Positions 2,787 through 6,785 of a stretch of DNA of 34,357 nucleotides are shown piece after piece. Positions within the stretch are counted from its first letter, which is position 1; each line of letters opens with the position of its first letter. The notes under the pieces are model-generated. The model was not told the origin of the DNA and did no database searches. It worked only from the letters and a program-made list of their open reading frames with translations. The stretch comes from Desulforamulus aquiferis (GTDB lineage: Bacteria > Bacillota > Desulfotomaculia > Desulfotomaculales > Desulfotomaculaceae): positions 41,682-76,038 of the forward strand of contig AWVY01000021.1 of assembly GCA_004143605.1 (NCBI GenBank), read 5' to 3'. The translations under genes and the position numbers were made by a program.

Positions 2787-3247
2787 TTAAGTATGCTTAC
2801 TCTTTAAAAGCTTCTCTACTTCCTGCAAAAAACTATAAACATCCCGAAATTGCCGGTAAACTGAGGCAAAGCGAACATAGGCCACCTCATCCAACTCTTT
2901 CAGCCGCTCCATGACCTGTTCCCCAACTTCCCCACTGTTTACCTCAAGGTCCATCTTATTGCGAAGTTCTCTCTCGATTAAATTTGCAGTCTTTTCTAAT
3001 TCTTGAACAGGTACCGGTCTCTTTTCACAGGCCTTTATTAAACCGGCCAGTAACTTTGACCGATCAAAGACTTCCCTGCGGCCATCCTTCTTTACCACCA
3101 CTAAGGGCAACTCATCTATTTTCTCGTAGGTGGTAAACCTCTTTCCACAGTCGCTGCACTCCCGGCGGCGTCTAATACTGCAGCCTCATCGGCAGGCCTT
3201 GAATCTAATACACGACTTTCAGGGAAGCTACAAAATGGGCAACGCAC
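2787..3247 (-). CDS. nrdR: Transcriptional repressor NrdR
   Basis: Nucleotide-sensing repressor of ribonucleotide reductase genes. After repair it is 153 aa, the normal size. The N-terminal zinc ribbon has CPFC near the start and CSDC about 30 residues later; the ATP-cone starts at [20 protein letters not shown]. Start is GTG at 3247 (MRCPFCSF); an overlapping ATG at 3249 is out of frame. One break at plus-strand 3173 (TT to T): restoring it converts the dead-end frame to [15 protein letters not shown]. It sits directly upstream of nrdD, and a near-perfect NrdR box lies 73 bp before the start, which predicts autoregulation together with nrdDG. Confidence 0.92.
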
Positions 3248-3304
3248 ATGACACACCCCCAATATATTGGGTTTACGCTCGAACAATTCCAAGATGTTGT
3301 ATGC

Positions 3305-3334
3305 ATGCTAATTATAGTGCACTATATATAGTGA
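3305..3334. promoter_or_regulatory. NrdR box upstream of nrdR-nrdD-nrdG
   Basis: CACTATATATAGTG (3320-3333) is a perfect 14-bp palindrome and matches the core of the NrdR box (C-W-A-T-A-T-A-T-W-G) at every position. An adjoining sequence, CTAATTATAG (3308-3317), fits 8 of 10 core bases, with centres 14 bp apart. NrdR boxes usually occur in pairs with wider spacing, so the second may be fortuitous. Position before nrdR and the nrd operon fits the known role. Confidence 0.75.
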
Positions 3335-3504
3335 GTCAATGTCTGTTTCCAGTAAAAATTACCAATATATCCTAAGAAGATTAATCCTCCCTTTAATTTC
3401 CTTCAGTTTTTATCCATCCAAAGAAAATTTCTTTATAAACCACTTTTATTACATAATGTCAGTCTTCTGCGAAATACTTACCTTTAGAAAATATCTAAAG
3501 GCGA

Positions 3505-3532
3505 TGAATATAATGGAAAATATTACTTACTA
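3505..3532 (+). promoter_or_regulatory. Possible sigma-G promoter of splB
   Basis: TGAATA (3505-3510) equals the sigma-G -35 consensus, and CTTACTA (3526-3532) matches the -10 consensus CATACTA in 6 of 7 bases. The spacer is 15 bp, two to three bases shorter than usual. Because this sequence has lost bases from short runs in many places, a shortened spacer could itself be an error (GGAAAA lies within it). In Bacillus, spl is read by sigma-G in the forespore, which fits. Confidence 0.4.
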
Positions 3533-3550
3533 ACCCCTGCCAAGTCCTAT

Positions 3551-4570
3551 TTGTTTAAGCCTAAGAGGGTATTCATTGAACAGGCGGCCCTGAATTATGA
3601 TTTAGGGAGAGGATTGCAGGATAGGTTTAGGTCCGAGGGTATTCCAGTTTCAGTCCTGGGCGCCCACAACAGGGTTACCGGCATCCCAGGGAAAACACCC
3701 CAGGAGGCATTTCTTGAAGCAAAGCGCACACTGGTCATTGGAGTTCGCAAGGTTAAAGAATTCCAAACCTGCAAGCCCTCGGCCCACTACCAGTTACCCC
3801 TGGTATCAAGCTGTCCTGGCAAATGTGAATATTGTTATCTTTTAACTAATTTGGGGAAAAGGCCCTACGTAAAGGTTTATGTCAATATTGAAGAAGTCCT
3901 TGAGCGGGCTCAAGGATATATTAATGAGCGACTACCCCAGCATACAATCTTTGAGGGGGCGGCCACCTCTGATCCTATACCAGTTGAAAGATACACCGGA
4001 GCCATAAAAAAATCCATAGAATTCTTTGGCCGACAAAGTCATGGCCGTTTTAGATTTGTCACCAAGTTCACAGATGTAGACTCACTGCTAGACACCAGGC
4101 ATAATGGTAAAACCCGCTTTCGCTTCAGTCTTAACAGTGATTATGTTATAAAGGCCTTTGAACACGGTACTCCTACCATGCCAGAAAGGGTTGCAGCGGC
4201 CGGTCGTGCGGGGGCCGCTGGCTTCCCTTTGGGCTTTCTCATTGCTCCGATTTTTCTCTATGAAGGCTGGCAAAAGGGGTATGGTGACCTCTTTGAGGCT
4301 TTAAATACAACCCTGCCCAAGGAGTCCCGCAAGGACCTAACCTTTGAATTAATAACTCATCGATTCACAAGCCGGGCAAAAAACAATATTAGGGAGGTCT
4401 TTCCCAACTCCCAGCTAGATATGAGGGAAGATACCAGGCAATTCAAATATGGTCAGTTTGGCTATGGTAAATTCGTTTATCCTAAAGAAAGAATGGGTGA
4501 AGTAAGGGACTTCATGGAAGGCCTGTTAAAGCAGCACTTCCCACAAGCCAAGGTAGAGTACCTGGTATAA
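3551..4570 (+). CDS. splB: Spore photoproduct lyase family radical SAM protein
   Basis: Spore photoproduct lyase reverses the 5-thyminyl-dihydrothymine UV lesion in germinating spores. The ORF is intact, 339 aa, the usual length. The radical SAM cluster motif is SCPGKCEYCY (Cys88, Cys92, Cys95), with both flanking Tyr present; conserved blocks are GVRKVKEF, KFTDVDSLLD, HNGKTRFRFS, GFPLGF, FELITHRFT. At the position of the catalytic hydrogen-donor Cys of Bacillus SplB (EASCTSD) this protein has GAATSD (Ala138). A fourth Cys, Cys74 (FQTCKPSAHY), lies before the cluster. Start TTG 3551 was chosen because it fits the N-terminal alignment; no good Shine-Dalgarno precedes it, so the true start is uncertain. 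It is the only plus-strand gene here and is probably monocistronic. Confidence 0.85.
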   Translation: MFKPKRVFIEQAALNYDLGRGLQDRFRSEGIPVSVLGAHNRVTGIPGKTPQEAFLEAKRTLVIGVRKVKEFQTCKPSAHYQLPLVSSCPGKCEYCYLLTNLGKRPYVKVYVNIEEVLERAQGYINERLPQHTIFEGAATSDPIPVERYTGAIKKSIEFFGRQSHGRFRFVTKFTDVDSLLDTRHNGKTRFRFSLNSDYVIKAFEHGTPTMPERVAAAGRAGAAGFPLGFLIAPIFLYEGWQKGYGDLFEALNTTLPKESRKDLTFELITHRFTSRAKNNIREVFPNSQLDMREDTRQFKYGQFGYGKFVYPKERMGEVRDFMEGLLKQHFPQAKVEYLV

Positions 4571-4609
4571 TGACTCAAAGGACCCTCACCTGACTGTAAA
4601 TCCGCAATG

Positions 4610-4638
4610 AAAAGGTTGGGCGTTAATCCCAACCTTTT
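4610..4638. terminator. Bidirectional terminator between splB and the lut operon
   Basis: Perfect 11-bp stem: AAAAGGTTGGG (4610-4620), loop CGTTAAT, CCCAACCTTTT (4628-4638). The arms supply T-runs on both strands, and it lies between the converging ends of splB (4570) and the lut genes (4645). Confidence 0.85.
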
Positions 4639-4644
4639 ATAGTG

Positions 4645-6785
4645 CTATTCTTTTATCGCCTCGGCAAGTAGCTCTGCTGTGTGTTTTACAGGCAGGTTGT
4701 TGCCTTTATTGTCTAAACCACCGGAAATTTGCATTTTACAGCCTGGACAATCCAGGGCTACCATTTGAGCACCCGATGCTTCGATGTTAGTTATCTTCTT
4801 GTCCAAAATGGCTTTAGAAATATCAGCCATCTTAATGGAATAGGAGCCACCGAAGCCGCAGCATTCGTCGCAGCCCTTCATCTCTATCAGATTTGCACCT
4901 GCCTTATCCAGCAGCTCACGGGGTTCCTTCCAGACCCCCAGGGCCCGCTTCATATGGCAGGAATCATGGTAGGTGACACTGGTATTAATCCGGTCATATT
5001 TTAGCTCCTGACCATGCTTAGCCACAAAGGAGGCAAAATCAACAACCTTAGCTGCAAATTTTTCTGCCCTGCCTTTCCATGCCGGGTCGTCCTTCAAGTG
5101 TTCCACAAAGTGATGCTTTAGGACCTCCACACAGGTGGACATAGGGAAATGACATAATCCACCTTTTCCTTTTCGAAGGCCTCAAGATTCTGTTTGGCCA
5201 GCTTAACTGAAACTTCAGGAGCACCCATTTGACTGGCTGGAATACCACAGCAGCTTTGCTCTTGGGGAAAAACCACTTCCATTCCCATTTTGCCTAGAAC
5301 TTTATAGGCTGCTTCACCCTGCTCGGGATAGACAAAATCCCCTAAGCAACCAGCAAAGAATCCAACCTTGGCCTTAGCCTTACCTTCAGGTACCTGGTGA
5401 CCAACCTTATCCCTAAGGGGTGTTGCTGCCACTGCCGGTAACTGCGGCCCTCAGTTAAACCTGAAAAGAACATGGGTAGATGGCGAATCATATTACCCTT
5501 AACGAAGGGTTTTTGAACAACTGAACCAGCTCTAATTAGGGAGTGGAACAACTTTCTGTTGGTTAACACCTTTTCTAAAATTAATTTTTGGCCCGTTGGT
5601 AATCCGTCCTTTTTAACCGTCCTGCGGCGCAACTCCACAATCAAGCTGGGCAAATCAATCTTACCAGGACAGAAGGCTTTACAGCGTTCGCAGCGCAGGC
5701 AAAGGTTTTGAAGCTCCCCAGCCTTATCAAAACTATTAAAGAAAGCAGTTAAGATAGTTCCTATGCCGCCGGTATAAACGTCACCATAAACGTGGCCACC
5801 CACCTGCTGAAACACAGGACAAACATTTAAACAGGAAGCACAGCGAATGCACTGCAGGGCTTGCTTAAATACGGGATCATTACGCATTTCAGTTCTGCCA
5901 TTATCAAGCATTACTATGTGCATTTGCTTATTCTCAATTATTTCACCATCCATACCTACAGCAGAGGCAGGGCCGGTCATCATGGTTACATAGCTGGTTA
6001 GCTTCTGTCCGGTGGCACTGCGGGGCAATGCTTCTAGAATAGGTCCTATGTCTTTAAAATTAGCTACTATTTTTTCTAAGCCTACCAACACAACGTGTAC
6101 AGGTGGGACGGTGGTGGTAAGTCTGCCGTTTCCTTCATTGGTGCACATAACAATGGTTCCTGTTTCAGCCACTGCAATATTTGCTCCAGATATGCCCATT
6201 TCGGCTTTAAGAAACTTATTGCGTAGGTTTTCTCTAGCCACCTTAACCAGTTTGGGAATGTCCGGCTCCAAATTTTCCTTTACTTCTTTGGAAAATACCT
6301 CGGCCACTTCTCCCCTGGTCATGTGAATTGCAGGCATTACCATATGGGAAGGGCGTTGTCCGCAAAGCTGAATGATCCACTCGCCCAGGTCTGATTCTGC
6401 AACGTCAGAAATTCCCTCTTTGTTTAGGTGTGAGTTTAAATGTATTTCTTCGGAGGCCATGGACTTTGATTTAATAATACTCTTTACATTATTGTCTTTA
6501 GCAACCTTAACAATATAATCCTGGCCTCCTGGGCAGACTTAGCCCGGAAGACAATCGCTCCGGCCTTTTCTGCATTAGCTGCAAATTGAGCTGCTAATTT
6601 TCCATGTTCTCCGCAGCATAGCTCTTGGCCTTGGCAATTTGCTCACGAATAACCTCAAAATCTTTTCCTTCGTAGGCCTTTTCACGGGCAATAGGGTATG
6701 CTTCACCGAACCGACCCAGGGCGCCCTTCAGGTTGTCGTTATTCAGAGCAGTATTAATATCTTGTTTTAAATTTGTATTAGACAA
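4645..6785 (-). CDS. Fused LutB-LutA: LUD-domain iron-sulfur protein with C-terminal CCG domains (L-lactate oxidation)
   Basis: Part of the LutABC-type L-lactate dehydrogenase system. After repair it is one 714-aa protein. Residues about 1-310 are a LutB-like LUD domain (SKSMASEEIHLN, ETDLGE-like AESDLGEWIIQL, GITGANIAV-like GISGANIAVAETGT). Two ferredoxin-type motifs follow (CIRCASCLNVCPVF, CLRCERCKAFCPGK). The C-terminal third is LutA-like with two CCG modules (GFFAGCLGDFVYP with SCCG; VTYHDSCHMKR with CDECCGFGG), and LDCPGCK near the end. Bacillus has these as separate LutA and LutB. Breaks: plus-strand 6598-6601 (T5 to T4), 6523-6524 (GGG to GG), 5440-5441 (AAA to AA), 5137-5138 (GGG to GG). 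None falls where a natural LutB stop would be expected, so the fusion is supported. It starts 13 bp after lutC. Confidence 0.85.

Follow-up and report, generated by a model that had tools for sequence, protein, structure and literature searches.

A Clostridium-type spore photoproduct lyase in Desulforamulus aquiferis with its probable hydrogen-donor cysteine at a second, already known active-site position

Gene organization at the splB locus

We analyzed a window of 34,357 nucleotides on contig AWVY01000021.1 of Desulforamulus aquiferis, which carries on its forward strand, at positions 3551 to 4570, an open reading frame (ORF) that starts with TTG and runs intact across 339 amino acids. The gene, splB, encodes a spore photoproduct lyase (SPL) of the Clostridium type (Cys74/Ala138). 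The protein matches NCBIfam TIGR04070 (spore photoproduct lyase) over residues 2 to 339 with 538.2 bits against a cut-off of 400, and Pfam PF20903 over residues 2 to 338 with 454.7 bits against a cut-off of 27, which bears out the end-to-end homology that the first-pass annotation had read from the sequence by eye. Against TIGR03886, a related radical SAM family titled "spore photoproduct lyase family protein", it scores 113.6 bits and is a non-member (cut-off 437.55); a side branch outside SPL is ruled out by this score, which lies far under the cut-off.

The window SPL contains four cysteines, at residues 74, 88, 92, and 95. The last three form the CX3CX2C motif of the [4Fe-4S] cluster, as had been noted earlier; this motif aligns with the cluster motif of Geobacillus SPL and together with the relay tyrosines Tyr94 and Tyr96 (Tyr96 and Tyr98 in Geobacillus) occupies positions 3812 to 3838 of the forward strand. 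Cys74 (codon TGC, positions 3770 to 3772, forward strand) corresponds to Geobacillus site 76 and is the putative hydrogen-atom donor. The donor-cysteine site of the Bacillus and Geobacillus enzymes is held by Ala138 (codon GCC, positions 3962 to 3964, forward strand) within the motif FEGAATSDP. The Clostridium type has a cysteine at site 74 (Geobacillus site 76) and none at the C141 site, as found here, and the Bacillus type has its cysteine at C141 (Bacillus) or C140 (Geobacillus). Judged by its sequence, the window gene is thus a full-length, ordinary, and well conserved SPL of the Clostridium type.

Divergent to splB, an NrdR-like fragment lies on the reverse strand at positions 2787 to 3110, and in D. 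aeronauticus and D. putei the same neighbor adjoins splB; in each case the name was given by inspection of the translation. The SPLs of relatives start with ATG 13 and 19 residues further upstream. The corresponding part of the window (3482 to 3572) has no upstream ATG in the splB frame; an ATG at 3513 is out of frame and runs into a stop after six codons. Either a base has been lost close to the start, or translation begins at the TTG at 3551. Downstream, at positions 4645 to 6460, three overlapping ORFs stand against a single ORF of 620 amino acids beside splB in D. putei (positions 3154 to 5016 of locus L077), a split that fits the loss of bases elsewhere suspected in the assembly. A second, canonical splB carrying the function had been considered earlier; the genome contains no match besides the window gene, a negative that extends as far as its completeness of just 72%.

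Structural comparison with solved lyases

Gap-free alignment with the crystal sequences places Ala138 on Cys140 of Geobacillus SPL (4FHC and 4FHD), equivalent to Cys141 of Bacillus, Cys74 on Ser76, and Tyr94 and Tyr96 on the published relay tyrosines. The AlphaFold2 model of the window SPL, built from 27 aligned sequences, has a pLDDT of 88.3, which goes down to 75 in residues 71 to 80 and to 70 in residues 91 to 100. Foldseek matches the model to six SPL entries of Geobacillus thermodenitrificans at a TM score of 0.95, identifying the SPL fold, and VIA-align gives the same six entries Z scores of 43 to 44, followed by the next fold at 14.3. Residues 1 to 339 of the model fall on chain residues 3 to 341, an offset of 2 that agrees with the sequence alignment; Ala138 stays on the Cys140 site, with no cysteine there, and the alanine first read at the donor position stands in both comparisons.

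The fold, the CX3CX2C cluster, and the relay tyrosine pair are common to the window SPL and the Bacillus subtilis and Geobacillus enzymes, but the latter carry the donor Cys at Geobacillus site 140 and Ser at site 76, the reverse of the window SPL. Sequence search and Foldseek agree on 4RH0 as the best PDB match, an entry whose title reads "C140A/S76C mutant with bound AdoMet"; the sequence filed for 4RH0 and 4RH1 has Cys76 and Ala140, the identical residue pair, in a protein that shares 48–49% identity with the window SPL at the same TM score. There the pair was engineered into an enzyme that originally had Ser76 and Cys140; the window SPL has it naturally.

A family survey of the two cysteine sites

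Related loci were retrieved with an alignment query, which was productive where a single-protein query had given no result; a Cys138-type query from the window's order mostly returned known genes, and a Bacilli query was needed for more. Matches occurred in 83 of 113 genomes of the order, 203 of 398 in a phylum-wide draw, and 144 of 299 of the class Bacilli, which was assigned from its sequences and from which 67 loci were fetched. The 366 fetched loci include 362 with a homologue spanning both sites; these reduce to 303 distinct proteins, 301 of them SPLs (213 Cys74/Ala138, 16 Cys74/Ser138, and 72 Ser74/Cys138). Three Cys74/Ser138 SPLs added later, which stand outside the alignment, the trees, and the tyrosine count, bring the set to 304. 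The counts cover the fetched loci, whose sampling is uneven and was guided by similarity to the window protein. Short fragments, the frameshifted L040, present as fragments only, and L048–L050, which are other radical SAM proteins at 23–26% identity, were left out, and eleven divergent Asn74/Ser138 homologues, two of them within the 303, were counted as another family.

Every one of the 304 distinct SPLs has a cysteine at exactly one of sites 74 and 138: 213 are Cys74/Ala138, 19 are Cys74/Ser138, and 72 are Ser74/Cys138, with none carrying cysteine at both sites or at neither. Accordingly, all 232 SPLs without Cys138 have Cys74, and the 72 with Cys138 all lack it. For the 303 homologues, pairwise and multiple alignment yield identical counts; of the 339 columns, just two, 74 and 138, fully separate the two types. 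All 301 SPLs checked for them retain the cluster cysteines, Tyr94, and Tyr96. Scoring the family at the donor site and at Cys74, as the first-pass annotation had suggested, thus reveals a strict reciprocal exclusion. Cys74 does lie ahead of the cluster as that annotation described, but it is no additional cysteine, and EGAATSD, at first taken as a departure, is the norm in this lineage. Titles and the beginnings of abstracts yielded no description of a family-wide exclusion of both sites, a weak negative because the key papers were beyond reach. This family-wide rule, strict in the sequences compared, is among the survey's additions and is the result worth keeping.

Residue 79 (positions 3785 to 3787 of the window) is His in 199 of the 213 Cys74/Ala138 SPLs, Asp or Asn in 16 of 16 Cys74/Ser138 SPLs, and Glu or Asp in 72 of 72 Ser74/Cys138 SPLs, and it is possibly coupled to the donor site. 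L040 (G070:C5), from the window's order, is a frameshifted SPL of the Ser74/Cys138 type, as read from its N-terminal fragment, in which Tyr replaces the second cluster Cys; it is probably a decaying gene. Four genomes (G039, G035, G019, and G028) each contain several short partial SPL matches, with nine in G039, that look like fragments of SPL copies and in part group close to the intact gene.

A proposed radical relay through Cys74

We propose that the window SPL is, with high probability, a functional Clostridium-type lyase that uses Cys74 as its hydrogen donor. Following standard SPL chemistry, the [4Fe-4S] cluster on Cys88, Cys92, and Cys95 would cleave SAM to a 5'-deoxyadenosyl radical, and this radical would take H6proR of the spore photoproduct, giving a thymine allylic radical and thymine. 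Because the textbook site holds Ala138, the allylic radical would be quenched by a hydrogen from Cys74, on the side of the pocket opposite the textbook donor. The Cys74 thiyl radical would then be reduced via Tyr96 and Tyr94 with regeneration of SAM, probably after closure of the pocket. We infer these steps for the window protein from the sequence, fold, conservation, and exclusion described above, together with published work on the role of C74 and on the engineered rescue.

For the SPL of Clostridium acetobutylicum, the accessible part of PMC5368176, citing Yang et al. 2017, gives C74 as the conserved cysteine and projects it opposite the conserved tyrosine. This enzyme belongs to the same family and its donor Cys bears the same number opposite the relay Tyr, but it comes from a different organism, and the residue at its 141-equivalent is only presumably a non-cysteine. 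According to the accessible part of PMC9692996, citing Benjdia et al. 2014, SPL activity lost by mutation of the Cys is restored by another Cys near the substrate, and the C140A/S76C combination named in the title of 4RH0 is such an engineered pair. One of two readings offered in the first-pass annotation, in which the relay is completed by Cys74, is thus well supported by the reciprocal exclusion, the C. acetobutylicum C74, and the C140A/S76C enzyme; it appears right and is in print for a relative, and the novelty that was implied for the arrangement falls away, since it is already described. Four SASP genes score above the Pfam cut-off in the window's genome; therefore, the DNA conformation that forms the spore photoproduct, and the lesion itself, should occur in its spores. 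In Clostridioides difficile, loss of spl lowers the UV survival of spores about tenfold (PMC8452069, accessible part).

A changed substrate or chemistry, in which an external quencher or another lesion is involved and Cys74 is structural, is very unlikely. With a dinucleotide substrate, C. acetobutylicum SPL leaks about 20% TpT-SO2-, suggesting a donor function less tight than in Bacillus, but 80% of the product is normal TpT (PMC5368176, accessible part). A structural cysteine would not track the donor site as Cys74 does in all 232 and none of the 72 SPLs, and the relay tyrosines and cluster, invariant in the 301 SPLs, the unchanged fold, and the SASP genes likewise argue against a side branch with altered chemistry, the other reading put forward at first.

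Still less probable is a tyrosine as direct hydrogen donor with Cys74 dispensable. Tyr94 and Tyr96 are invariant, which is compatible with such a role, and Tyr305 occurs in 95% of the Cys74 type and is rare in the Cys138 type. However, the Bacillus C141A mutant, which has UV-sensitive spores and keeps both tyrosines, yields TpT-SO2- without lag in vitro; in Bacillus SPL, tyrosine is therefore no direct donor, and Cys141 very likely is (PMC3742179, accessible part). Tyr305 follows ancestry, being also found in Cys138 sequences outside Bacilli, and was rejected as a compensating residue on the same distribution. Finally, a sequencing error or a dead or decaying gene copy as the source of Ala138 has a negligible probability despite the frameshifted genes near by and the incomplete assembly, as the ORF is intact, a change from Cys to Ala takes more than one base, and all nine Desulforamulus genomes carry Cys74 and Ala138, which rules out the error and confirms the earlier judgment that the substitution is real and no artefact of base loss.

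Evolution of the donor site

Trees were built for 84 representatives with columns 74 and 138 removed. In the 84-row tree, the Cys138 type needs three changes, namely in Bacilli, in the L033/L036 group of the window's order, and in L229, and it forms a single group in none of 200 bootstrap trees. A tree of 41 hand-picked rows also needs three; these rows comprise every one of the 15 with Cys138 or Cys74/Ser138, and 26 of the 67 with Cys74/Ala138. The AU test of a single Cys138 clade gave p values of 0.043 against the careful 84-row tree and 0.061 on the 41 rows, where uniting the two larger Cys138 groups alone gave 0.030. Against the quick 84-row tree, p was 0.846, the constrained tree having beaten the free one and been missed by the quick search. 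Relocation of the donor more than once is thus likely, not proven, the AU tests being mostly borderline. The independent pairs in the data number three, which gives p = 0.25 in a sign test and puts significance out of reach of any such test; given so few evolutionary events, the exclusion is not statistically independent evidence despite the many agreeing sequences.

The Cys74/Ser138 sequences lie beside the Bacilli Cys138 group in the 84-row trees. Ser138 is encoded by AGY in 16 of 16 of them, and Ser74 in the Cys138 type by TCN in 72 of 72. A single base change turns AGY, TCC, or TCT into a Cys codon, so the donor switch could plausibly have passed through a Ser138 stage. Cys74 may be the older state, in trees whose root and base lack resolution. 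We put forward, at somewhat less than an even chance, that the donor can change its place: the combination of Cys74 and a small residue at 138 would be older and would remain the rule in SPLs outside Bacilli, and the Bacillus donor would be derived from it, probably via Cys74/Ser138, with up to three swaps (in Bacilli, in a small group of the window's order, and in L229) that always ended with exactly one cysteine, the cysteine of a sister family being a possible third site.

That sister family consists of divergent SPL homologues from the phylum (L371–L379, L041, and L042), with about 30–34% identity, Asn74/Ser138, and neither donor Cys. In all eleven, query position 99, four residues past the last cluster Cys, holds an invariant Cys (CX3CX2CX3C) that may serve as a third donor site or as an additional ligand. 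In a profile check of these homologues, no match reached the TIGR03886 cut-off.

Biological significance

The probable hydrogen-donor cysteine of the window SPL is at a second, already known place of the active site and not at the Bacillus position; the window SPL adds a member to the known Clostridium-type SPLs. Cys74 predominates outside Bacilli in our sample, which explains the puzzling alanine, and the Bacillus enzyme, behind the worked-out mechanism, represents the less common arrangement among these sequences. The strict either/or pattern amounts to natural replicates of an engineered rewiring of the radical pathway, and the Cys74/Ser138 sequences, together with the small Cys138 groups, are material for testing the route of the switch.
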